Shown here piece after piece: positions 20,191 through 40,976 of a stretch of 64,000 bases of DNA; position 1 is the first letter of the stretch, and each line of letters starts with the position of its first letter. The notes beneath the pieces were generated by a model, which was given only the letters and a program-made list of their open reading frames with translations, made no database searches and was not told where the DNA came from. The stretch covers positions 646,517-710,516 of the forward strand of contig SIJG01000010.1 of the NCBI GenBank assembly GCA_023374025.1. Reading direction: 5' to 3'. The position numbers and the translations under genes are program-made. This DNA is from Heterodera schachtii (lineage: Eukaryota; Nematoda; Chromadorea; Rhabditida; Heteroderidae).

Positions 20191-20220
20191 TCACTTGGCA
20201 TTCGAGTTCATCCGCTTGTA
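20117..20220 (-). repeat. Repeated terminal-codon cassette at the end of USP-A (x3)
   Basis: The last 27 coding bases plus stop (TACAAGCGGATGAACTCGAA...AAGTGA) occur three times in a row. The first is the real C-terminus (stop 20191-20193); the other two fall in the 3' UTR, spaced by ATATTATTGTGTGT. Confidence 0.85.
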
Positions 20221-22220
20221 GTACAGAAGGAATGCGCGCTTGCTCTAAAAGGAGGAAAAAACAAATTATTATTATTTTTTCATTTGAATGGCTGGAAACG
20301 GTTCTCACAGTGGGCGATGGAGCGGTGCCGCACGGAATGCATGATTCATCGTCGAAACTCAGCCACTCCCGATCAGTGCTGATCAAATTGATCACGGACG
20401 ATGTGTAATGGCCACTGTTCAGCCGACCGCTGTGATCCTGAAGGGGAAATGGGGAAAGAAAATTAGTGTGATTAGTGACAATTTTAACCAAATTTGATCA
20501 CCCACCGTTATGCCGTAGAGACTGAGTGCTGCGTTGTGATGCGTAGACTTCTCGTGAAGAAAGGGCGCCAGGTCCAACTCGGCCACATCAAACGTCACTT
20601 CGACCTGAAAATTGTTTAAAAAATCAGTCAAAATCACGCTCAAAAAAAACCCCAACGGAAACTTACGTCATTTTTGACGTAGTGTCCATCAATCAGCGAA
20701 AATCTCTTCAAATGGACGATCAGCACCTTCGGAATCTCCCAAATTTTTGTGCTCCGTGTCGCCGGCTGTTTGCTTTTGCACTTCGGACAATCCCATTTAT
20801 CCTCGAGACTCTGAAAAAGGGAGGGGAAAATGAGATCAGACACAAATTCAGGCTGTGGTGCTGCTCACTGCTGATGAAAAGTGCGCCTCCAGGCAGTCCT
20901 TGAGCGTCAGGCAGTCGGTGTTGGTCGGCAATTCGAGGCTGAAAAAACAAAGGGAAATTCAAATTAGGGAATTTTTTTTGGGTCTGTAAAAAACCCACCT
21001 TAGTTGGTTGACGACCTCGAAGCGAACACTCTTCGTATTGCACGTGCTGCATTGGACCACGGAGATGTTTGTCAGCTGAAACAAAGGGGAAATCATTAGA
21101 ATTGGTAGACAAAAGAAAATGAATGACTCCTCCAAACTCACGTTGAACAGATCGTTGACCGGCGACGAAGAGAACAGTTTCGACCTCTCATTGAAATCCG
21201 AAGCGCTGGCGCCCAAATCGGTGTCGTCGTAGTTCTGTTCAAACGATTGTCGCTTGTTGACCTGAAAATGGGGAGGGGGGAGGGTGAAAAATGGCACATA
21301 AAATGGCAAAACTCACCCGGTTGGTGTCCTCGTGAAGCGCGTCCAGCAGATAGAGTTGAAATTCTTGTGCGTCGTGCTGCTGTCGGTCGGCCATTTCGGT
21401 GTTGACACGGCGAGCGAAGAATTCCTGGGGGAAAAAAGGCAAAAATTTGATTAGAATGGATGATCAAAGGCACAGACAGATTCACTCACCAGGAAGATGC
21501 CGGGCCGAAGAGCGTTGAACTTGCCGGACCAGATCAGGTCGATGAGCGCGGAGAATGAGCCGGAGATCACCCCATTCGTGCCAAACGAGTTGTTCCTGGA
21601 AAAGGGAAACAAAAAATGAATTTTATGAAAATTCGAAGACGGCGCTCGGCTCCCCCTCCTGACGCACCCATTGACGAATTGCTGCGCGCTCTTTTCTTGG
21701 AACAGTTGAGAAAATCCGGGCGTATGGAACAGTGGCTGAAGAGTGGCGTTCATGAAGCACGTATTTCCCATATTGAAGAGGCCAGTTTGTCCGAGGGGCT
21801 GAAAAAATGAAAGAATGAATTTTAAGCCGAAAAAGGTTTTTTCCGGCCAAGTCAGTCCCCCGAAATCCCACCGTTTTCTTCCACTCCGAATCGCTGGCGA
21901 TCCTCTGCGCTGACATTGCATATGCGCTCAGGAAGAAGTTGCCGGTGCCGTCATCAGTGCTGAAAGAGGGGAAAGGGACGCGATTCATCAGTGACTTAAA
22001 CACAACAACAAAATGGGGAGTGCATGCAATTCACTGACAGAGGCTGCGCTGGTTGTCGAGTTGGAACAAATGGCGCTGGTGACATGGTCGGATGAGTTGT
22101 TGGCTGTTCCGTCACGTCGTCCGAAATGGGCATCGCCTTTCGTCTGCGCGGATGGGGAGGGCCTGCATGGTTGCCAAAGTTGCCGTCCGGAAGCGGTCGC
22201 CCTTGACTCGAGGCAGTCAT
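20191..22220 (-). CDS. Ubiquitin-specific protease, copy A (intact, cytosolic form), 12 exons
   Basis: A cysteine protease that cleaves ubiquitin from proteins. Exons 22220-22039, 21959-21872, 21798-21668, 21595-21490, 21424-21317, 21261-21142, 21075-20999, 20938-20869, 20810-20667, 20604-20506, 20437-20309 and 20244-20191 total 1308 nt, 435 residues. The Cys box is GLFNMGNTCFMNATLQ (Asn99 oxyanion side, catalytic Cys104). The zinc ribbon uses CSTC (254-257) and CPKC (302-305). The His box is HSGRLNSGHY (His385), with FDDES (Asp404). A compact catalytic core follows a ~61-residue Pro/basic leader. In size and layout it resembles USP2/USP21-type enzymes, but the subfamily is not certain. ATG at 22218-22220 lies 10 bases after TTTTCTGTAG, a good trans-splice acceptor. 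An H2A gene lies upstream on the same strand. Confidence 0.9.
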
Positions 22221-23956: not shown

Positions 23957-24640
23957 TCACTGACTGTCGTCGTTCTGCTTCTTCTGCTGCATCTTCGACA
24001 AAAGGATCGTGTGAATGTTGGGCAACACACCGCCACGAGAAATGGTGACCTCCGCGAGAAGCTGAAAATTTCAAATGGATTTTCAAAAAATCCAAAAACC
24101 ACGACGGCCTCTGACCTTGTTCAACTCCTCGTCGTTGCGCACAGCCAATTGCAAATGGCGCGGGGTGATTCGCAACTTTTTGTTCTCCTTCGCCGCGTTG
24201 CCGGCCAACTCGAGCACTTCGGCCGCCAGGTATTCCAACACCGATGCCATATAGACAGGCGCTCCGGCCCCAATGCGCTGAGCATGGCGACCTGTGAATG
24301 GAAAATTCAGAAAATTTCATTGAAAACCCTCTCCCCTCTCGAAAACTGTACCGTGGCGCAGCAAACGATGGATACGTCCGACGGGAAATGCAACGCCAGC
24401 ACGAGCAGAGCGCGTGCTGTACGTTCCGCTCGCAGCAATCTTCACTTTTCCACCCTTTCCGCCCGCCTTCTTCGCCCCTTTTCCGCCCGCCTTCACTTTT
24501 CCGTCCGCCTTCGCTTTGCCGCCCTTTCCGCTAGCCGTCGTCTTCGTAGCTTTTCCGGCTTTCACTGGAGACGCCACTTGAGACTCCTGACTGTTGGTCG
24601 TACCGGTCGAAGCAACGGAGGCACCACGATTGTCAGACAT
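23957..24640 (-). CDS. Histone H2A variant with long N-terminal tail, copy A, 3 exons
   Basis: A core-histone component of nucleosomes. Exons 24640-24352, 24291-24116 and 24061-23957 give 189 residues. The histone fold starts at [20 protein letters not shown] (residue ~76); acidic-patch and docking segments follow ([48 protein letters not shown]). Canonical H2A has about 15 residues before SRSxRAG. Here ~75 residues precede the fold: a Ser/Thr-rich start, then Lys/Gly/Ala repeats resembling linker-histone tails. The protein ends QKKQNDDSQ, and the terminal SQ recalls H2A.X but lacks the usual acidic-aromatic end. Two introns and an AATAAA-type 3' end suggest a replication-independent gene. 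Confidence 0.92.
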
Positions 24641-25974: not shown

Positions 25975-26004
25975 TCACTTGGCTTTCGAGTTCATCCGCT
26001 TGTA
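25901..26004 (-). repeat. Repeated terminal-codon cassette at the end of USP-B (x3)
   Basis: Same cassette as behind USP-A: three copies of TACAAGCGGATGAACTCGAA...; the first ends the gene (stop 25975-25977). Confidence 0.85.
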
Positions 26005-28003
26005 GTACAGAAGGAATGCGTGCTTGCTCTAAAAGGGGGCGGGGAAACAAATTATTATTTTTTCATTTGAATGGTTGGGAACGAAGAAACTCACAGTGGG
26101 CGATGGAGCGGTGAGGCACGGAATGCATGATTCATCGTCGAAATTCAGCCACTCCCGATCAGTGCTGATCAAATTGATGACGGACGCTGTGTAATGGCCA
26201 CTGTTCAGCCGACCGCTGTGATCCTGAAGGGGGAATGGGGAAACCAAAATTAGTGTGATTAGTGACAATTTTAATCAAATTTTGGTAACCCACCGTTATG
26301 CCGTAGAGACTGAGTGCTGCGTTGTGATGCGGAGACTTCTCGTGGAGAAAGGGCGCCAGGTCCAACTCGGCCACATCAAAAGTCACTTCAACCTGAAAAT
26401 TGTTTAAAAAGCAGTGAAAAACAGACGCAAAAAAAAACACGACGGAAACTTACGTTATTTTTGACGTAGTGTCCATCATTCAGCGAAAATCTCTTCAAAT
26501 GGACGATCAGCACCTTCGGGATCTCCCAAATTTTTGTGCTCCGTGTCGCCGGCTGTTTGCTTTTGCACTTCGGACAGTCCCATTTATCCTCGAGACTCTG
26601 AAAAAGAGAGGGGAAAATGGGATCAGACACAAATTCAGGCTGTGGTGCTGCTCACTGCTGATGAAAAGTGCGCCTCCAGGCAGTCCTTGAGCGTCAGGCA
26701 GTCGGTGTTGGTCGGCAACTCGAGGCTGAAAAATTCAAAGGGAAATTCAAATTAGGGAATTTTTTTTGGGTCAGTGACTCAAACCCACCTTAGTTGGTTG
26801 ACGACCTCGAAGCGAACACTCTTCGTATTGCACGTGCTGCATTGGACCACGGAGATGTTTGTCAGCTGAAACAAAGGGGAAATCATTAGAATTGGTAGAC
26901 AGAAGAAAATGAATGACTCCTCCAAACTCACGTTGAACAGATCGTTGACCGGCGACGAAGAGAACAGTTTCGCCCTCTCATTGAAATCCGAAGCGCTGGC
27001 GCCCAAATTGGTGTCGTCGTAGTTCTGTTCAAACGATTGTCGCTGGTTGACCTGAAAATGGGGAGGGGGGAGGGTGAAAAATGGAACATAAAATGGCAAA
27101 ACTCACCCGGTTGGTGTCCTCGTGAAGCGCGTCCAGCAGATAGAGTTGAAATTCTTGTGCGTCGTGCTGCCGTCGGTCGGCCATTTCGGTGTTGACACGG
27201 CGAGCGAAGAATTCCTGGGGGAAAAGGCAAAAATTTGATTAGAATGGATGATCAAAGGCACAGACAGATTCACTCACCAGGAAGATGGCGGGCCGAAGAG
27301 CGTTGAACTTGCCGGACCAGATCAGGTCGATGAGCGCGGAGAATGAGCCGGAGATTATCCCATTCGTGCCAAACGAGTTGTTCCTGGAAAAGGGAAACAA
27401 AAAATGAATTTTATGAAAATTCGAAGACGGCGCTCGGCTCCCCCCTCCTGACGCACCCATTGACGAATCGCTGCGCGCTCTTTTCTTGGAACAGTTGAGA
27501 AAATCCGGGCGTATGGAACAGTGGCTGAAGAGTGGCGTTCATGAAGCACGTATTTCCCATATTGAAGAGGCCGGTTTGTCCGAGGGGCTGAAAAAAAGTG
27601 AATTTTAAGAAAAAAAAAATTTTTTTCCGGCCAAGTCAGTCCCCCCAAACCCACCGTTTTCTTCCACTCCGAATCGCTGGCGATCCTCTGCGCTGACACT
27701 GCATATGCGTTCAGGAAGAAGTTGCCGGTGCCATCATCAGTGCTGAAAGAAGGGAAAGGGACGCGATTCATCAGAGACTTAAACACAACAACAAAATGGG
27801 GAGTGGATGCAATTCACTGACAGAGGCTGCGCTGGTTGTCGAGTTGGAACAAATGGCGCTGGTGACATGGTCGGATGAGTTGTTGGCTGTTCCGTCACGT
27901 CGTCCGAAATGCGCATCGCCTTTCGTCTGCGCGGATGGGGAGGGCCTGCATGGTTGCCAAAGTTGCCGTCCGGAAGCGGTCGCCCTTGACTCGAGGCAGT
28001 CAT
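25975..28003 (-). CDS. Ubiquitin-specific protease, copy B (intact, cytosolic form), 12 exons
   Basis: Exons 28003-27822, 27742-27655, 27587-27457, 27383-27278, 27214-27107, 27051-26932, 26865-26789, 26725-26656, 26597-26454, 26392-26294, 26223-26095 and 26028-25975 give 435 residues, the same length as copy A exon by exon. The Cys box GLFNMGNTCFMNAT, the CxxC pairs of the zinc ribbon and the His box HSGRLNSGHYTASV are all kept. Differences from copy A are few (for example AQRFVNG for AQQFVNG, and NQR for NKR before QSFEQNY). The same trans-splice-like TTTTCTGTAG precedes the ATG. Copies A and B look like recent duplicates under constraint, both lacking a signal peptide. Confidence 0.9.
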
Positions 28004-29794: not shown

Positions 29795-30478
29795 TCACTG
29801 ACTGTCGTCGTTCTGCTTCTTCTGCTGCATCTTCGACAAAAGGATCGTGTGAATGTTGGGCAACACACCGCCACGAGAAATGGTGACCTCCGCGAGAAGC
29901 TGAAAATTTCACATGGATTTTCAAACAATCCAAAAACCACGACGGCCTCTGACCTTGTTCAACTCCTCGTCGTTGCGCACAGCCAATTGCAAATGGCGCG
30001 GGGTGATTCGCAACTTTTTGTTCTCCTTCGCCGCGTTGCCGGCCAGCTCGAGCACTTCAGCCGCCAGATATTCCAACACCGATGCCATATAGACAGGCGC
30101 TCCTGCCCCAATGCGCTGAGCATGGCGACCTGTGAATGGAAAATTCAGAAAATTTTATTGAAAACCCTCTCCCCTCGCGAAAACTGTACCGTGGCGCAGC
30201 AAACGATGGATACGTCCGACGGGAAATGCAACGCCAGCACGAGCAGAGCGCGTGCTGTACGTTCCGCTCGCAGCAATCTTCACTTTTCCACCCTTTCCGC
30301 CCGCCTTCTTCGTCTCTTTTCCGCCCGCCTTCACTTTTCCGTCCGCCTTCGCTTTGCCGCCCTTTCCGCTCGCCGTCGTCTTCGTAGCTTTTCCGGCTTT
30401 CACTGGAGACGCCACTTGAGACTCCTGACTGTTGGTCGTACCGGTCGAAGCAACGGAGGCACCACGATTGTCAGACAT
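29795..30478 (-). CDS. Histone H2A variant with long N-terminal tail, copy B, 3 exons
   Basis: Exons 30478-30190, 30129-29954 and 29899-29795 give 189 residues. The copy is nearly identical to copy A: the tail has [10 protein letters not shown] where A has [10 protein letters not shown], and the fold and the NDDSQ end are the same. It is part of tandem unit 2 and upstream of USP-B on the same strand, 1.8 kb away, so independent promoters are more likely than one transcript. All phases close. Confidence 0.92.
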
Positions 30479-31701
30479 TGCGTTGTTTGTTGTTGATTGA
30501 ATGATAGAGAGATAAAAGCAAAATATCAGTGAGATGAGCTAATGAAAGAAACTTTAAGTTATTGTGAGTCATGGAAGGAAGGGGGACAAAAAATGAACGC
30601 GCGATTTGAAATGACACGGAAGAAACGCTCAAAAAGATACGCGGATGCGATTTGATTTAAACGACAATAATGCGCGAAGCGAAAATGATGCGCAACAATT
30701 GATGAGGTGAAACAAATGACGCGGAAAGCGTTTGCGCAAAAAACGCAGCGATACAAAAACTGAAATTTCGCAATTGGAACTTCGAGTCTTTTAAATCGGT
30801 CAATGGCATGTCTAACGGATCGCCTCCCATCCCCAGTGCTAATTTGTCGAAAAACAAACAATTTTTGAAGATGTACATTGAGTGGAAACACGGTGTTTCA
30901 ATTCTGTTGTAGTTTTGAAATTTCGAATTTTGAAAAATAGTGTGTATGAAACGAGAAACCCTAAGGAGTTCATTAGAAACTCTACTCCTTACTAGCCAAT
31001 TTAAAGAATGGGGTGGTGGGACGCACTTTCGAAAAAGCTATGATCACGGATCACGAAAAAAGAAATGAACAGTCACGTTCGCAATTTGCACTGACGCTGT
31101 TTCAGTTTGGGGGAAAAAATGGTGCGAGGCGAATGAGAAATTCAGTGAGAAAACTGTCCTTTTATGCAGTCACTATGGGTCAAGCCCAGTGTTAGACAAA
31201 AAAGCTCATAACGCCAAATAGAGTTATTGGCGTAATTTTTTCGCGCTAATTCAAAATTTATATTGCTGAATGCCTTTTTTGGATTGTTTATTTTGATCAG
31301 CCATAACTCGCTTCTTTCCCAACTAAACTGAACAAAATTGGTATCTAAAAAAACTTTTTGAACAGGAGAATTTTTATCCAAGACGAATGCTAAAAAATTT
31401 GTCATCTCAGAAAAAAGTTATGAGTTTAAAATTTTTTTTCAGGTTATAACTCAAGTACTAGGCCGCTGTTTTTAACCAAATGCGAAAATTAGTCATTTTT
31501 TATTATATTCTTACCCTATCCATACTTAATTACCACATTCACACTAGGCTTTATCATAACATACACAAATGACATTTTAAACAAACAGAAAGGCAACAAC
31601 AATAATGAGATGCTTGTTTAGAACAATACACAACAATGGCATAAATAATCCTATCTTTGTCACGCCTTAGGCTTAACATTTTGTACATGTCCTTCTCAAC
31701 A
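30479..31701. other. Spacer between gene X-A and H2A-B
   Basis: No gene seen. About one ATTTGAAATGACACGG unit of the H2A upstream repeat sits at 30598-30660. 31010-31165 matches 25140-25330. About 31195-31480 holds diverged copies of the GCTCATAAC / TTGGTATC element. Confidence 0.55.
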
Positions 31702-32128
31702 TTAAATTGGCGGAAGCGGCGCGTAATTTTCCTTTTTTCCCGTGCCGTAGCGAGCCGATTTCTTTGGTGGCGCGTCCATGTCATCTGTTGGCATCGGTTT
31801 CTTTGGTGCAGATTTAGGCCTTGCGGTTCCAGCAACGAGTATCAAACGTCCGCTGCCGCTGCCCTCGTCCGACCCGTCCGAGCGCAACGATTCCGGCACT
31901 TCCACTCCGAATTTATGCGCCATCGTCACATCATTTCTTGACGCGTCCGAGCGCTCTGATTCCGGCACTTCCACTCCAAATTTGGATGCGATCATCGCTT
32001 TCCTGATTCCAACGCGTCCGCTGTCGTCCCTGTCCGAGAGCAATGATTCAGGCACTTCCACACCGAATTCAGATGCCCTTGCCGTATAGCCTGTGAAATG
32101 CATTGATGAATGAGAAATTTCTCCAAAT

Positions 32129-32227
32129 CCCGTATTTACTCGATTAGAACCCCCCTCTCGAATAAAGCCCCTCGTCTGTGGAGGGTGAACAATAGAGCCC
32201 CAGGGGGCTCTAATCGAGTAAATACGG
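32129..32227. mobile_element. Short inverted-repeat element (MITE-like), family 1, left copy
   Basis: About 99 bases with terminal inverted repeats CCGTATTTACTCGATTAGA / TCTAATCGAGTAAATACGG and a C/G-rich internal part. It sits in the last intron of X-A; the same site in X-B carries a copy (38546-38651), so insertion predates the arm duplication. Confidence 0.75.
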
Positions 32228-32698
32228 TATTCAAATCGTATACGACGAATCACCTTCGTGTGACATTTGACTCAGATTTCCCCCCGCTGCTGATTGCCCC
32301 ATACAATTGTGCACCACAATTCTCGTTGCAGCTGCTGGTCTCTCCATTTTCTTCTTCTCCCATTTGTCATCGTCACCCGTAACTGTATGAGAAGCAGACT
32401 TTTTTTGTCGACGAACCACCAGCACAATCACAATTGTCAGGACGGTAGCCAAAATGAGGAGACCACCTCTGAAAGTGGGGGATTTCAAGAGCAAACAGCG
32501 GAAGTTGGCACGCACCCGAGGAGGCCGTAGAAAAGCAAATCCTTCGTGTTCAAAATGCCACCGCCCTTTTGCCAACATTGTTCAACCAACAATTCAGGAC
32601 CGCTTTCCGCCTTGTTCAGAAGAACCACGACATCGTCCTTAAAAATAGGGAAATTGCCAATTAAAAATCAAAAGGAAATTTCGATAGTTCCTTGATTT

Positions 32699-32887
32699 GG
32701 TACCCCCCTCGAAATATTTTAAAATTTCAAAAAAGCATAGATATTTTTTAAATCTATGACCAGCAGGTGTCATCAGCAGATTTCAAACTAACGCCATATT
32801 CGTGTGATTGATCAGACCTTGAAAAATCCAAAATATGAATTTTTATTATTTTCGACGGGGGGGGGGGGTAGCAAAACACAGAGGTAC
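32699..32887. mobile_element. Short inverted-repeat element (MITE-like), family 2, left copy
   Basis: Ends GGTACCCCCCTCGAAAT...ATTTTCGACGGGGGGGGGGGGTAGCAAAAC...GTAC, inside intron 3 of X-A. A partner is at 37895-38089, and the terminal layout is shared with the element at 45529-45744. Confidence 0.65.
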
Positions 32888-33828
32888 TGAAATGACACGC
32901 ACAATAAACGCTTTCCATCCGCACTGAACCAATTCCTCATCATCATCATCCGAAATGTTTTTCCATAAAGACATTGTGAAATGACGCGCATTCGGCAAGC
33001 CATCGACCGGAGTCATTTGAAGAAGGTTGCACTGTGACATTCAGAAACGCACATTTGCCTTGACCACAGTTCTCTCCGAAGCGATCTTGACCCTGAAAAA
33101 CAATTAGGAATTGTTAGTACATAATTAACACACATTGGCAACACGAAAACATTGACTGACCGCACGTCCCTCGAGGGCAACAACGCGCTCATCAACGGCA
33201 CAACCGGTTGGCATTTGAACACGAGAAAGGAAGGATGTTTTGCAATTGATGCCGCCACCATTTGGGAACAGGACCGACATCACCAAGCGTTTGTCCGCAG
33301 CGTCGTCCAAACGAAGCGCATCAATTTTTGCGTTGCCTTCATTGGTTGTCAGTTGCGATGGATCAACACGACTGAAAAATGCCAAAAAACTTAGACCAAA
33401 AATGGAAAAATTTGAATTTTCAACTTTTGTTCGAATTCGGGTTTCGAAATTGGTCGAAATGAATGGCATGTTGGTGATCAGAGACCCTCAAAACACCATA
33501 AAACGTGTTTTCGCGACTTTTTAGAAGAAAAAATTTTCTTCCAAAAAATGGGGGGGGGGGCATCAGCGTTCACTATTACCAAAAACAATTTACACGTTAA
33601 TTTGAGTAAAACTCACAGCCGCTTATCTCCAACAACAGTGAACGTGCCGCCGTGCACTGCGGCATCTTTCTTCGCACAGGCAAAGCCGCGCAATGAAAAA
33701 CTGCTGCTGTTGGCATCCGCCGATTGGGAGCAGCAACGGGCGAAGAGCAGGACGAAGACGAACACTGACAAAACAGAAGAAGCAGAAGCAGACGAAGGCC
33801 ACGGTTGAAGAGGCAATGAATAAGCCAT

Positions 33829-34370
33829 ACGATAGAAGAAGTTGTTGGCAATTCAACAAGAAAATATGTAAAAGCGAATGATGGAAATGTGTTGGCCAAC
33901 ACGCGCTTTTATACCAACGACCGCGCACAACAAAATGACAACGAAAAAGAGACAATGGCAATGGCAACGGCCCAGCAGAGTGCAGAGAGAGAGAATTAGG
34001 AAAAGATAAATATGTAATGTCTAACAAATTATAGAAAAAAACAACAAGAGAAATAGTGTGTAACATCGTGCCGTTTTTCTTTCTTTCTTAGCTCTGTTTA
34101 TAACCCATCTCTTAATGGGTTTCTTTTTCAATAAGATTACACTTTTTTTTTTTACCATTTTCAAATGATGCAAGCGCCGGAAGTACGCCGCCGAACTGCT
34201 AATCCTAACCTGAAATGGGAATAATTTTTGGAACGCCCCTCTTTGAGGGGTTAAAATTCACAAAAAAAATTTCTAAATTTGATTCCGACATTCTGTCTCT
34301 TCTGTCTCTTTCTTGGCCTGGCCAATATTTTCCACAAATGTCCACTGTGTTTATTTTGTGTATTTAAGCA
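33829..34370. promoter_or_regulatory. Divergent intergenic region between X-A and USP-C
   Basis: About 540 bases between the X-A start (-) and the USP-C start (+). It contains the X-type TATA box, matched by GGTATAAAAGCGC before X-B at 36868, and the inner edge of the left arm near 34271. 34272-34370 is outside the inverted arms and so is private to USP-C. Confidence 0.45.
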
Positions 34371-34466
34371 ATGCTTTTCACTTTTCTCTCCGTTCAATTG
34401 TTCATCATTATCGTTGCTTCTGCACTCACACTCGTCGGCCAATGTTGTGGCTTTTGTAAGAAAAAA
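34371..34466 (+). other. Signal-peptide-coding first exon of USP-C
   Basis: Not homologous to exon 1 of copies A/B and outside both inverted arms. It begins with an ATG after GTATTTAAGCA and runs uninterrupted for 32 codons: short N-region, ~20 hydrophobic residues, then a Cys/Lys-rich end. Its origin within the window is not visible. Confidence 0.55.
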
Positions 34467-36291
34467 GTAAATAAATCATTTATCAACTTCTTAATTAGGT
34501 AATTAAATTTTTTTTTTTTGTCGACAGAAAAAGCCAAAGGGCAACTTTTTCCTGAGCGCATATGAAAAGTCAGCGCAGAGGCTCGCCAACGAATCGGAGT
34601 CGAAGAAAACGGTGGGTTTTCGGAGGACTGACTTGGCCGGAAAAAAAAATTTTTTTTTTCTTCAAATTCACTTTTTTCAGCCCCTCGGACAAACTGGCCT
34701 CTTCAATATGGAAAATACGTGCTTCATGAACGCCACTCTTCAGCCACTGTTCCATACGCCCGGATTTTCTCAACTGTTCCAAGAAAAGAGCGCGCAGCAA
34801 TTCGTCAATGGGTGCGTCAGGAGGGGGGAGCCGAGCGCCGTCTTCGAATTTTCATAAAATTCATTTTTTGTTTCCCTTTTCCAGGAACAACTCGTTTGGC
34901 ACGAATGGGAGAATCTCCGGCTCATTCTCCGCGCTCATCGACCTGATCTGGTCCGGCAAGTTCAACGCTCTTCGGCCCGGCATCTTCCTGGTGAGTGAAT
35001 CTGTCTGTGCCTTTGATCATCCATTCTAATCAAATTTTTCATTTTTTTCCCTTCAGGAATTCTTCGATCGCCGTGTCAACGCCAAAATGGCCGACCGACG
35101 GCAGCACGACGCACAAGAATTTCAACTCTATCTGCTGGACGCGCTTCACGAGGACACCAACCGGGTGAGTTTTGCCATTTTATGTGCCATTTTTCACCCT
35201 CCCCCCTCCCCATTTTCAGGTCAACAAGCGACAATCGTTTGAACAGAACTACGACGACACCGATTTGGGCGCCAGCGCTTCGGATTTCAATGAGAGGTCG
35301 AAACTGTTCTCTTCGTCGCCGGTCAACGATCTGTTCAACGTGAGTTTGGAGCCATCATTCATTTTGTTTTGTCCGCCAATTTCTAATCATTTCCCCTTTG
35401 TTTCAGCTGACAAACATCTCCGTGGTCCAATGCAGCACGTGCAATACGAAGAGTGTTCGCTTCGAGGTCGTCAACCAACTAAGGTGGGTTTGAGTCACAG
35501 ACCCAAAAAAAAAATTTCCTAATTTGAATTTCCCTTTGAATTTTTCAGCCTCGAATTGCCGACCAACACTGACTGCCTGACGCTCAAGGACTGCCTGGAG
35601 GCGCACTTTTCATCAGCAGTGAGCAGCACCACAGCCTGAATTTGTGTCTGATCTCATTTTCCCCTCCCTTTTTCAGAGTCTCGAGGATAAATGGGATTGT
35701 CCGAAGTGCAAAAGCAAACAGCCGGCGACACGGAGCACAAAAATTTGGGAGATCCCGAAGGTGCTGATCGTCCATTTGAAGAGATTTTCGCTGAATGATG
35801 GACACTACGTCAAAAATGACGTAAGTTTCCGTTGGGGTTTTTTTTGAGCGTGATTTTGACTGATTTTTTAAACAATTTTCAGGTCGAAGTGACGTTTGAT
35901 GTGGCCGAGTTGGACCTGTCGCCCTTTCTCCACGAGAAGTCTACGCATCACAACGCAGCACTCAGTCTCTACGGCATAACGGTGTGTCACCAAAATTTGA
36001 TTAAAATTGTCACTAATCACACTAATTTTGGTTTCCACATTCCCCTTTCAGGAATCACAGCGGTCGGCTGAACAGTGGCCATTACACAGCGTCCGTGATC
36101 AATTTGATCAGCACTGATCGGGAGTGGCTGAGTTTCGACGATGAATCATGCATTCCGTGCGCCGCTCCATCGCCCAATGTGAGAACTTCGCACAACAATT
36201 CATTACACAATGAAAAAAAGTTTTTCCCCCTTTTTAGAGCAAGCACGCATTCCTTCTGTACTACAAGCGGATGAACTCGAAAGCCAAGTGA
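34371..36291 (+). CDS. USP copy C with a new signal-peptide exon; altered catalytic region
   Basis: Proposed exons: 34371-34466, 34528-34611, 34681-34811, 34885-34990, 35057-35164, 35220-35339, 35407-35483, 35549-35618, 35677-35820, 35883-35983, 36052-36178, 36238-36291 (405 residues). Exons 2-12 match copies A/B. Exon 1 does not: it encodes 32 residues with the hydrophobic core LFIIIVASALTLVG, a typical signal peptide, then QCCGFCKKK. It joins exon 2 in phase 0 through AAAAAA^GTAAAT, creating KKKKKPK, which resembles a nuclear localisation signal. An alternative GTAAGA donor 10 bases earlier would give an immediate stop. Changes: Gly to Glu at residue 71 (FNMENTC, catalytic Cys74), and one extra A beside the His box. 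Moving the exon 10 donor 2 bases downstream (ACGGT^GTGTCA) restores ITVNHSGRLNSGHY; the ancestral donor gives a truncated protein without the His. It is either a pseudogene or a new secreted form. Confidence 0.6.
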
Positions 36292-36321
36292 TACAAGCGG
36301 ATGAACTCGAAAGCCAAGTGA
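36262..36321 (+). repeat. Repeated terminal-codon cassette at the end of USP-C (x2)
   Basis: The 30-base unit TACAAGCGGATGAACTCGAA(AGCCAAGTGA) occurs twice, back to back. The first contains the stop at 36289-36291. Copies A and B have three. Confidence 0.9.
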
Positions 36322-36954
36322 TATTATTGTGTGTGTATCTCTGTGTATGCTCTGTACAATATGTATTGTATTTGTATTGATTGTATGTTCATATTAGTCG
36401 TCTTGTAAATAAATGGCAATAAACCAGCGTCTTCATCGATTGTTAATTCTTTTAACGTTGATAAATGATTCATTTAAAGAAAGAGACATAGCACTGTCAG
36501 AATTCAATTAAAACAAATTTTTTTTTTTTGTGAATTTTAAACCCTCAAAGAGGGGCGTTCCAAAAATTATCCTTTTAGGATTATCCCTTTGGTGGCGTAC
36601 TTCCAGCGCTTTCCAATTTGAAACCAGTAAAAAAAAAAGTGAACTCTTATTGAAAAAGAAAACCAATAAGAGATGGGTTATAAACAGAGCTAAGAAAGAA
36701 AGAAAAACGGCACGATGTTACACACTATTTCTCTTGTTGTTTTTTCTATAATTTGTTAGACATTACATATCTATCTTTTCCTAATTTTCTCTCTCTACCC
36801 TCTGCTGGGCCGTTGCCATTGCCATAGTCTCTGTTTCGTTGCTCATTTTGTTGTGTGCGGGGGAGTTGGTATAAAAGCGCGTGTTGGCCAACACATTTCC
36901 ATCATTCGCTTTTACATATTTTCTTGTTGAATTGCCAACAACTTCTTCTATCGT
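36292..36954. other. USP-C 3' flank and gene X-B promoter region
   Basis: Homology to the USP-A/B 3' flank stops after GTAAATAAATGGCAATAAAC (about 36424). The right arm begins near 36515. GGTATAAAAGCGC at about 36868-36880 is a TATA box about 85 bases before the X-B ATG. Confidence 0.6.
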
Positions 36955-39071
36955 ATGGCTTATTCATTGCCTCTTCAACCGTGGCCTTCGTCTGCTTCTG
37001 CTTCTTCTGTTTTGTCAGTGTTCGTCTTCGTCCTGCTCTTCGCCCGTTGCTGCTCCCAATCGGCGGATGCCAACAGCAGCAGTTTTTCATTGCGCGGCTT
37101 TGCCTGTGCGAAGAAAGATGCCGCAGTGCACGGCGGCACGTTCACTGTTGTTGGAGATAAGCGGCTGTGAGTTTTACTCAAATTAACGTGTAAATTGTTT
37201 TTGGTAATAGTGAACGCTGATGCCCCCCCCCCATTTTTTGGAAGAAAATTTTTTCTTCTAAAAAGTCGCGAAAACACGTTTTATGGTGTTTTGAGGGTCT
37301 CTGATCACCAACATGCCATTCATTTCGACCAATTTCGAAACCCGAATTCGAACAAAAGTTGAAAATTCAAATTTTTCCATTTTTGGTCTAAGTTTTTTGG
37401 CATTTTTCAGTCGTGTTGATCCATCGCAACTGACAACCAATGAAGGCAACGCAAAAATTGATGCGCTTCGTTTGGACGACGCTGCGGACAAACGCTTGGT
37501 GATGTCGGTCCTGTTCCCAAATGGTGGCGGCATCAATTGCAAAACATCCTTCCTTTCTCGTGTTCAAATGCCAACCGGTTGTGCCGTTGATGAACGCGTT
37601 GTTGCCCTCGAGGGACGTGCGGTCAGTCAGTGTTTTCGTGTTGCCAATGTGTGTTAATTATGTACTAACAATTCCTAATTGTTTTTTCAGGGTCAAGAAC
37701 GCTTCGGAGAGAACTGTGGTCAAGGCAAATGTGCGTTTCTGAATGTCACGTGCAACCTTCTTCAAATGACTCCGGTCGATGGCTTGCCGAATGCGCGTCA
37801 TTTCACAATGTCTTTATGGAAAAACATTTCGGATGATGATGATGAGGAATTGGTTCAGTGCGGATGGAAAGCGTTTATTGTGCGTGTCATTTCAGTACAT
37901 CTGTGTTTTGCTACCCCCCCCCCCCCCTCGAAAATATTAAAATTCATATTTTGGAGTTTTTCAAGGTCTCTGATCACACGAATATGGTGTTAGTTTGACA
38001 TCTGAACACCTGCTGGTCATAGATTTCAAAAATATCTATGCTTTTTTGAAATTTTTCGAGGGGGGGGGGTAGCAAAACAAGGAAGTACCGAAATTTCTTT
38101 TTGATTTTTAATTGGCAACCGCAAATTTTTTAAGGACGATGTCGTGGTTCTTCTGAACAAGGCGGAAAGCGGTCCTGAATTGTTGGTCGAACAGTGTTGG
38201 CAAAAGGGCAGGTGGCATTTTGAACACGAAGGATTTGCTTTTCTACGGCCTCCTCGGGTGCGTGCCAACTTCCGCTTTTTGCTCTTGAAACCCCCCACTT
38301 TCAGAGGTGGTCTCCTCATTTTGGCTACCGTCCTGACAATTGTGATTGTGCTGGTGGTTCGTCGACAAAAAAAGTCTGCTTCTCATACGGTTACGGGTGA
38401 CGATGACAAATGGGAGAAGAAGAAAATGGAGAGACCAGCAGCTGCAACGAGAATTGTGGTGCACAATTGCATGGGACAATCAGCAGCGGGGGGAAATCTG
38501 AGTCAAATGTCACACGAAGGTGATTCGGCGTATACGATTTGAATACCGTATTATTACTCGATTAGAGCCCCCTGGGGCTCTATTGTTCAACCCCCTCAGA
38601 TGGGGGGCTTTATTCGAGAGGAGGGGGGGGGTTCTAATCGAGTAAATACGGTATTTGGAGAAATTTTTCATCCATCAATTCATTTCACAGGCTATACGGC
38701 AAGGGCATCTGAATTCGGTGTGGAAGTGCCTGAATCAATTGATCTCGGACAGGGACGACAGCGGACGCGTTGGAATCAGGAAGGCGATGATCGCTCCCAA
38801 ATTTGGAGTGGAAGTGCCGGATTCAATTCGCTCGGACGCGTCAAGAGATGTGACGATGGCGCATAAATTCGGAGTGGAAGTGCCGGAATCGTTGAGCTCG
38901 GACGGGTCGGACGACGGCATCGGACGCTTTCAACTCGTTCCTGCAACCGCAAGGCCTAAATCGGCACCAAAGAAACCGATGCCAACAGATGACATGGACG
39001 CGCCACCTAAGAAATCGGCTCGCTACGGCACGGGAAAAAAGGAAAATTATGCGCCGCTTCCGCCAATTTAA
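36955..39071 (+). CDS. Gene X, right-arm copy (X-B): unknown type I membrane protein
   Basis: Exons 36955-37166, 37411-37621, 37691-37879, 38135-38519 and 38691-39071. No family recognised. Seen: N-terminal hydrophobic signal (about residues 18-30), then a ~230-residue ectodomain with about ten Cys and N-glycosylation sites (NVTC, NISD) and an acidic DDDDEE patch. One membrane span follows, GGLLILATVLTIVIVLVV (~262-279) with RR behind it. The cytoplasmic part is basic, then carries the FGVEVPES repeats. The tail exon has an extra base (GAATCAATTGATCTC against GAATCATTGCTC in X-A), so the spliced frame ends at 38866 with a changed tail instead of 39071. If the last intron is retained, the protein ends SAYTI at 38542. 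The ectodomain and membrane part are open throughout. Confidence 0.65.
37895..38089. mobile_element. Short inverted-repeat element (MITE-like), family 2, right copy
   Basis: GTACATCTGTGTTTTGCTACCCCCC...CTCGAAAAT at one end and ATTTTTCGAGGGGGGGGGGTAGCAAAAC...GTAC at the other. It fills most of intron 3 of X-B and is orthologous to 32699-32887. Confidence 0.7.
38546..38651. mobile_element. Short inverted-repeat element (MITE-like), family 1, right copy
   Basis: CCGTATTATTACTCGATTAGA ... TCTAATCGAGTAAATACGG in the last intron of X-B; internal GGGGCTCTA / TAGAGCCCC half-sites. Confidence 0.75.
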
Positions 39072-40289
39072 TGTTGAGAAGGACGTGTACAAAATGTTAA
39101 GCCTAAGGCGTGACAAAGATAGGATTATTTATGCCATTGTTGTGAATTGTTGTAAACAAGCGTCTCATTATTGTTGTTGCCTTTTCTGTTTGTTTAAAAT
39201 GTCATTTATGTTGTGATAAAGCCTAGTGTTGAATGCGTTAATTAAGTGGGGAAGGGTAAACTAGCAAAACATACAATTTAGAATTTTTTCCTGATCAAAT
39301 ACATAGGTATCCTGGATTTCTAAAATAAACAATACAAAAAAATATGGAATTTGTGAAAAAAAAAACCCCAAGTTTCCACAATGTATCGCGCATTTTCTCA
39401 TTTTGTCAAATTTCTCAACAGCGGTGTCGCATTTGGGGTCGTTGATCACGAATTGTCATTCATTTTGGCCAATTTCGAACAATAGAACAGAATTTGAAAA
39501 CAAAAAGTCGAAAACCCAAATTTTTAAAAATTCGCTTTTTGGCGCTCTAACTTGGAACCGACTGCATAAAAGGACATGTTTTCTCACTGAATTTGTCATT
39601 TGCCTCGCACCATTTTTCCCCAAACTCAAACTGCGTCAGTGCAAACTGCGGATTTGACTTTTCAATTGTTTTTTCTGATCTGCGATCATACATAGCTTTT
39701 TCAAAAGTGCTTCCTTCCCCCCACCCTTGACAATGAAAAATCATTCTTTTTTAATAGCAGTTAAATTAGGTAGTAAATATGCAGATATTCTGATGAATTT
39801 AACTTTTATGATTTCGAGCTAAATTCTAAACTGCTACAAATGAATAAAAACATTTATTGTATCCTTTCTTTGTACATACATAGTAAAGTAGGGATCTCGG
39901 ATTCTCTTTTAAACATTTATGACCATGACTGTACATAGTTCACCCACCACCCAACAGTGATGTAATGGTACTGCGCGTCGCATCCGCTCTTTTTTACGCG
40001 TCTCGCATCCGTGGCATTTCAAATCCCTTCGCGTATCTTTTTGCGCGTCGCTTCCATGGCATTTCAAATCCCTTCGCGTATCTTTTTGCGCATCGCTTCC
40101 ATGGCATTTCAAATCCCTTCGCGTATCTTTTGCGCGTCGCTTCCGTGCCATTTCAAATTTCATCCATTTTTTCATGTCCCCGTTCCATTCCATGACTCAC
40201 ACTAACTTAAAATTTCTTTCATCTTAGCTCATCTCACTGATATTTTGCTTTTCTCTCTCTCTATCATTCAACCAACAACAAACAACGCA
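39072..40289. other. Spacer between gene X-B and H2A-C
   Basis: X-B 3' UTR to about 39258, then sequence related in reverse complement to 24640-25400. No gene seen. Confidence 0.55.
40013..40146 (+). repeat. Tandem repeat upstream of H2A-C, 45-bp unit x3
   Basis: Units of 45, 45 and 44 bases starting GGCATTTCAAATCCCTTCGCG and ending TGCGCGTCGCTTCCAT, with partial units on both sides. The array ends about 140 bases before the ATG. The equivalent regions of H2A-A and H2A-B hold only one to two diverged units. Confidence 0.9.
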
Positions 40290-40976
40290 ATGTCTGACAA
40301 CCGTGGTGCCTCCGTTGCTTCGACCGGTACGACCAACAGTCAGGAGTCTCAAGTGGCGTCTCCAGTGAAAGCCGGAAAAGCTACGAAGACGACGGCTAGC
40401 GGAAAGGGCGGCAAAGCGAAGGCGGACGGAAAAGTGAAGGCGGGCGGAAAAGGGGCGAAGAAGGCGGGCGGAAAGGGTGGAAAAGTGAAGATTGCTGCGA
40501 GCGGAACGTACAGCACGCGCTCTGCTCGTGCTGGCGTTGCATTTCCCGTCGGACGTATCCATCGTTTGCTGCGCAAAGGTACAGTTTTCGAGAGGGGAGA
40601 GGGTTTTCAATGAAATTTTCTGAATTTTCCATTCACAGGTCGCCATGCTCAGCGCATTGGGGCCGGAGCGCCTGTCTATATGGCATCGGTGTTGGAGTAC
40701 CTGGCGGCCGAAGTGCTCGAGTTGGCCGGCAACGCGGCGAAGGAGAACAAAAAGTTGCGAATCACCCCGCGCCATTTGCAATTGGCTGTGCGCAACGACG
40801 AGGAGGTGAACAAGGTCAGAGGCAGTCGTGGTTTTTGGATTTTTTTGAAAATCCATTGAATTTTTCAGCTTCTCTCCGAGGTCACCATTTCTCGTGGCGG
40901 TGTGTTGCCCAACATTCACACGGTCCTTTTGGCGAAGAATCAGCAGAAGAAGCAGCAGAACGACGACAGTCAGTGA
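40290..40976 (+). CDS. Histone H2A variant with long N-terminal tail, copy C, 3 exons
   Basis: Exons 40290-40578, 40639-40814 and 40869-40976 give 190 residues, one more than copies A/B because the C-terminus reads [11 protein letters not shown]. Other differences: RLLRKG (the usual H2A form) instead of RLLRHG at the exon 1/2 junction, EEVNKLLSEVT for EELNKLLAEVT, and [10 protein letters not shown] for [10 protein letters not shown]. The Lys/Gly/Ala tail equals that of copy A. It is the most diverged of the three copies but intact. AATAAA at 41180-41185 is its probable poly(A) signal. Confidence 0.92.

Follow-up and report, generated by a model that had tools for sequence, protein, structure and literature searches.

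How does one copy of a deubiquitinase gene in the genome of Heterodera schachtii come to begin with a hydrophobic N-terminus, and is its product a secreted effector? We analysed a window of 64,000 nucleotides containing three copies of a ubiquitin-specific protease (USP) gene. Copies A (20191..22220) and B (25975..28003) lie on the minus strand and are intact, each with 12 exons encoding 435 residues; copy A carries PF00443 (E 5.9e-50) and its residues 93-433 align to the solved USP15 chain 6crn (E 1e-56). Copy C lies on the plus strand, and an earlier note had proposed that it became a new secreted protease by replacement of its first exon. That note had copies A and B start with the same leader exon (22220-22039 in A and 28003-27822 in B); the 182-nt leader is indeed shared but is not identical, one residue differing between A and B. 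Copy C is without this leader as claimed, the longest match to the leader of A within 33500-34540 being 10 nt. A fourth copy (L008, G000:C56:918905-921976; hereafter the C56 copy), which has an indel in exon 10 relative to A and may be broken too, keeps the last 21 nt of the A/B leader at 95 % identity. Since the old leader is common to A and B and its end survives in the C56 copy, the head of copy C represents the derived state.

The exon structure described for the 5′ end of copy C is present in the sequence, with exon 1 at 34371..34466 (96 nt), GT..AG borders and a phase-0 exon at 34528-34611, and the residues CKKK|KKPKG read across the 34466/34528 junction as reported. Exon 1 encodes MLFTFLSVQLFIIIVASALTLVG-QCCGFCKKK, a 23-residue hydrophobic stretch followed by the QCCG and lysines. 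A Pfam search with exon 1 returned nothing beyond a chance match (E 0.38) and exon 2 of copy C matched no Pfam family. We searched 34371-34611 against the whole genome (178.5 Mb in 356 contigs) at an E of 0.001 and obtained nine matches: the query region, three USP copies (A, B and the C56 copy) and five loci on contig C1. The five C1 loci, referred to here as donors, align to query positions 6-166 (34376-34536) at 77-80 % identity, a stretch of exon 1 and intron 1 that runs nine bases into exon 2, while A, B and the C56 copy align to positions 170-241 (34540-34611). Exon 1 had been described as unrelated; the five relatives on C1, which share this whole stretch, together with a wider family of similar exons, contradict this, and an origin as random or de novo sequence is ruled out by the same five relatives.

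Exon 2 of copy C is itself a hybrid. Its start (34528..34536), coding for KKP, is identical in 5/5 donors, its remainder (34540..34611) is homologous to A, B and the C56 copy, and the codon between them (34537..34539) is ambiguous as to parent and falls in the gap between the donor and USP alignments. Judged by these alignments, copy C is a chimera whose parents meet at 34537-34539 inside exon 2. The exon replacement suggested earlier does not fit an exon that is donor-type to 34536 and USP from 34540, and a clean exon swap is likewise ruled out by a breakpoint inside exon 2. Intron 1 (34467..34527) is homologous to intron 1 of the donor family and follows the head in phase 0 as in the donors, intron phase having been compared for copy C and the C1 donors. 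The codons for KKKKKP lie entirely on the donor side of the breakpoint and CCKKK plus AAAAAGCCA (KKP) is found at the corresponding place in every one of the five donors, so the lysine run is ancestral to the head. A new gain of a nuclear localisation signal (NLS) at the junction is therefore rejected. Scored against a profile of the 22 A/B splice donors, which themselves score 6.12-11.89, the exon-1 donor at 34467 reaches 1.65, making the copy C junction weaker than those of A and B.

Homology to the donors extends upstream of the ATG. A promoter-side segment (34319..34370, +) is common to copy C and four of the five donors (blastn blocks to L003-L006, longest in L004), and it includes a TATTTAA at 34361-34367 that is conserved with the donors and separated from the ATG of copy C by three bases. 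The donors have an extra upstream ATG preceding their own start by 47 nt in four of them and by 48 nt in L002. Measured from this ATG, a codon common to all lies 56 nt away in 4/5 donors, 57 in the fifth and 6 in copy C, from which we infer a deletion of about 50 nt in copy C relative to the five donors; by this deletion the upstream ATG would have become the in-frame start of copy C. If TATTTAA acts as a TATA box, transcription would start within exon 1 and the ATG would be lost from the transcript; there would be no such distance problem if the start of copy C is instead made by trans-splicing.

The head exon belongs to a dispersed family. Three head exons used as queries gave 31, 43 and 41 matches (E up to 10) in overlapping lists, and we examined a set of 50 loci, copy C included. 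A nearly uncharged hydrophobic stretch of about 23 residues or more, followed by QCCG and lysines, characterises the head: a hydrophobic stretch and then QCC occur at 49/50 loci, 44 of these reading QCCG, and the exception (L060) reads QCV. The residue before the Q is small in 49/49 (S 29, T 15, A 4, G 1) and the 19-residue Kyte-Doolittle maximum has a median of 2.81 over the 50 loci. Charge is distributed unevenly around the stretch. Lysine or arginine precedes QCC in 3/44 loci that have a Met 16-36 residues upstream, or in four if the furthest Met is used, and copy C has none ahead of its hydrophobic core. In the 12 residues from the Q onwards at least two K/R are found at 45/49 loci and at least one at 49/49, a count that includes intron read-through in some rows. 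A hidden Markov model of ten heads, built without the C1 donors, was run on 2063 open pieces of the window; the sole significant piece was 34368-34499 (E 1.6e-6; next best 0.24).

Example loci that share the QCCG first exon across very different bodies are L004, L015, L018, L026, L050 and L065. The last of these (G000:C24:233000-236500) has an 854-codon open frame with a QCCG head, and the tandem repeat of this locus contains no stop in any of the three frames on its strand. The contig that holds the window also has L053 and L054 (G000:C10:849600-858900), a divergent DUF236-like pair with QCCG heads about 4 kb apart. Possibly, the QCCG exon is a shuffled membrane-anchor exon.

The positive-inside rule and juxtamembrane acylation underlie the expectation of a membrane anchor for such heads. 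What had been called a classical signal-peptide core is hydrophobic as stated, but copy C has no basic n-region and QCCGFCKKKKKPK comes directly after the core. The neutral flank before and basic flank after the stretch, its 23-residue length and the cysteines at its end lead us to expect an N-terminal anchor with a cytosolic body, a topology argued from charge and length only. We think it likely that the head is an uncleaved anchor; that it is cleaved is less likely, and the small residue before the Q would also fit signal peptidase. Since a USP acts on cytosolic or nuclear ubiquitin, a fusion serving the worm itself is also easier to understand with an anchor.

Among the bodies that follow these heads the best recognised are DUF236-like. 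A DUF236-like motif was found downstream in the fetched DNA of 22/49 head loci other than copy C, a 23rd match (L033) having been left out as it contains a stop. Two head genes pass the Pfam DUF236 cut-off of 25 bits (L017 with 27.9 and C3:2873326 with 27.4), and of the 36 DUF236 places listed for the genome the majority stay below it. Elsewhere the head precedes bodies whose tails are acidic, rich in lysine and threonine, or otherwise of low complexity. In the C1 donors a diverged DUF236-like motif, YSTLADINKEIF, is present. Pfam did not reach DUF236 on the repeat exon of the two of five donors searched, and against the genome's own repeat profile all five give E values of 0.37-2.0, among chance matches of the window; membership of the C1 donors in DUF236 is therefore likely by their head and not shown by their repeat. 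In the 64-kb window a search of both strands with the DUF236-like pattern gave one loose match, away from copy C, and the motif is absent from the plus strand. DUF236 is a nematode family reported from sperm regions in C. elegans and P. pacificus, where a role in sperm is put forward as the authors' hypothesis (PMC8480184). As the C1 donors fall below the DUF236 model, sperm expression is carried over to them from the wider family. In C. elegans, ubiquitination has been described on sperm membranous organelles (PMC3972651) and the palmitoyltransferase SPE-10 has been located at the fibrous body-membranous organelles (PMC4192757).

The remainder of copy C is altered, with a changed Cys box and an exon 11 out of frame, a point on which the earlier note is silent. 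Exons 3-6 (34681-34811, 34885-34990, 35057-35164 and 35220-35339) and 7-10 (35407-35483, 35549-35618, 35677-35820 and 35883-35981), all on the plus strand, are nearly identical to their A and B counterparts; no stop interrupts exons 1-10, which have GT-AG borders, and the UCH profile gives two copy C matches above its cut-off (34693-34797 and 35380-35826, the second spanning introns). The Cys box in exon 3 keeps its cysteine and reads ENTC in copy C versus GNTC in A, B and the C56 copy. This G-to-E change adjoins what we take to be the oxyanion Asn. Further downstream, equivalents of exon 11 (36052..36178, +), with the His and Asp region, and of exon 12, the last USP exon (36238..36291, +), are present. 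When the A-type donor at 35982 is used exon 11 is out of frame and soon reaches stops. This donor scores 8.19 on the A/B profile; a GT two bases on, which would leave exon 11 open, scores -4.6, and with it exons 10 and 11 of copy C would total 228 nt, the same as in A. The frame suggests that the natural product of copy C is more likely to be truncated than active. Mis-assembly among near-identical copies could also account for the shift of exon 11.

Copy C occupies the spacer (about 34270-36521) between the arms of an imperfect palindrome, in agreement with the large inverted duplication reported by the earlier note. The left arm (31589..34269; inverted repeats I4, I5, I8, I11 and I21) and the right arm (36522..39184) were delimited by inverted repeats and by blastn, and consist of inverted gene copies that are largely 90-100 % identical; two pieces of them searched against Pfam gave no match. 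A histone gene present in three copies adjoins the USP genes at 24116-24640 (-), 29804-30517 (-) and 40251-40964 (+). Exon 2 of the first two matches PF00125 (1.9e-12), the third being assigned by inverted repeat, and the first has a long lysine/glycine-rich N-terminus. Six other pieces of the window yielded no Pfam family at E 0.01.

Synonymous divergence between C and A is 0.024. Compared with A, B and the C56 copy, eight codon changes are private to copy C, of which seven, including five in exon 2, alter the protein; in B four of five private changes do so, and A has none. Divergence is higher in exon 2 than in the remaining exons when C is compared with A (7/72 vs 17/1035, p 5e-4) and with B (9/72 vs 23/1035, p 1e-4), and the control comparison of A with B gives 2/72 vs 25/1038 (p 0.69). 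Several introns of copy C are identical to those of A and others carry private differences, and exon 1 differs at 13/90 nt from each of the five donors. The diverged exon 2, the mixed introns and the distance of the head from its donors make gene conversion among the copies likely, and by this sequence comparison the fusion may be older than the body of copy C looks.

We consider it probable that copy C is a chimera of a QCCG-head front and a leaderless USP body, with a product tethered by the anchor and an enzyme that is weakened or dead. By alignment, everything from the promoter side through exon 1 and intron 1 to the opening codons of exon 2 stems from a QCCG-head gene and the rest from a USP15/USP8-like gene. 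Recombination inside exon 2 would have made the join, and the loss of about 50 nt after it would have supplied the in-frame start. The N-terminus of the anchor would lie outside or in the lumen, with the lysines and probably fatty-acylated cysteines on the cytosolic face, and the product would be a membrane-tethered, cytosol-facing USP fragment. Expression would be expected where the donor family is expressed, most likely in the male germ line. The Cys box and the frame of exon 11 suggest a weakened or dead enzyme, which would make copy C either a binding-only decoy or an incipient pseudogene.

The strongest rival to an expressed chimera holds that copy C is an unexpressed pseudogene, a recombination scar kept in the palindrome that gives no product, and we regard this as a serious possibility though not the expected outcome. 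The Cys-box change and the shifted exon 11 would both be at home in such a relic, as would the weak exon-1 donor (1.65) and a deletion of about 50 nt that may have taken out the transcription start. The dN/dS ratios point the same way, being 0.92 for C-A and 0.88 for C-B vs 0.49 for A-B, but are based on 20 to 28 differences per pair. Exons 1-10 are nonetheless open with GT-AG borders, and the head keeps the family pattern despite its 13/90 changes, both of which speak against a mere scar.

That copy C encodes a tethered and catalytically active USP appears unlikely. Such a protein would require use of the second exon-10 donor, leaving exon 11 open, and would act at a membrane much as USP30 does. 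In its favour are the retained Cys, a largely preserved body and the length of exons 10 and 11 with the later donor (228 nt, as in A), but that donor scores -4.6 when the lowest A/B donor scores 6.12, and the G-to-E change lies beside the presumed oxyanion Asn. A more specific reading of the chimera, grounded in the sperm reports on DUF236, organelle ubiquitination and SPE-10 cited above, is a sperm-specific tethered (pseudo)deubiquitinase whose acylated cysteines would hold it on the membranous organelles, where it would bind or trim the ubiquitin described there in C. elegans; in this precise form we rate it as quite unlikely.

The secreted effector envisaged by the earlier note, in which a cleaved signal peptide exports the USP to the host plant and CKKKKKPKG serves as its NLS, is improbable. 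Copy C does gain a hydrophobic N-terminus, and the small residue before the Q at 49/49 loci could be a cleavage site. A survey of C. elegans counts DUF236 among its large secreted-protein families, most of the proteins (10/13 members) having a predicted signal peptide (PMC3534327), and there is precedent for a housekeeping enzyme in the GS-like effectors, which are reported to have gained a signal peptide and gland promoter elements (PMC5919673). Secretion is, however, unsupported by the charge pattern of the head family, in which, as in copy C, a basic n-region is missing and lysines come right after the core, and the proposed localisation signal was already in the donors. The relatives of the head point to a family reported from sperm regions (PMC8480184) and not to gland effectors. 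The DOG box is described in 82 % of H. schachtii GLAND5 genes, with CLE effectors cited as being without it (PMC10946958). Counting ATGCCA on both strands we found 0 in the 500 bp upstream of copy C and 3 in 1000 bp, for a window background of 1.47 per kb, and the absence within 500 bp weighs weakly against an effector. The exon with the His and Asp, moreover, is out of frame by the better-scoring splice.

It is very improbable that the fusion or the exon-11 shift arose by mis-assembly of the palindrome. Near-identical arms and copies are generally hard to polish, but here the arms vary from about 90 to 100 % identity and copy C has private differences in several introns, which rules out A or B read as a fold-back, and its head differs at 13/90 sites from each of the five known donors.

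The chimera that we favour can be set beside several known systems. Many QCCG-head genes carry DUF236-like repeats (PF03057) and the 5′ end of copy C comes from such a gene, but along the strand of copy C the window contains no DUF236-like motif. With the USP15/USP4/USP8-type proteases it shares the exons of A, which aligns to the USP15 chain, and departs from them by its foreign head, by ENTC in the place of GNTC and by a His/Asp exon that is in doubt. N-terminal membrane anchors are a feature of USP30 and of yeast Ubp1. Copy C would similarly pair an N-terminal membrane segment with a cytosolic USP domain, whereas its QCCG-K head comes from another gene family and its activity is in doubt. 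Like copy C, the GS-like effectors of cyst nematodes involve a housekeeping enzyme copy that gained a hydrophobic N-terminus, but those are described with dorsal-gland promoter elements, gland expression and signal peptides (PMC5919673). The aphid cassette effectors also place one conserved N-terminal coding region on different bodies; they share signal-peptide exons (PMC7495047), whereas the QCCG exon looks anchor-like and its best-known bodies (DUF236) are reported from sperm regions. In the literature that we searched on nematode deubiquitinase effectors and chimeras, no such fusion was found.

A shared first exon of this kind can easily pass for a new effector, and here the signature of the family argues for an anchor and a non-gland tissue. 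Its occurrence at about 50 loci, on several kinds of body, indicates a possible route by which nematode genes come to be placed at membranes. Expression of the chimera in sperm, if it occurs, would link a young fusion gene to the ubiquitin marking of sperm organelles. Should the reading of a sperm (pseudo)deubiquitinase prove true, copy C would offer an early view of gene birth of the 'out of testis' type, with the QCCG head serving many unrelated bodies as a shuffled anchor exon.
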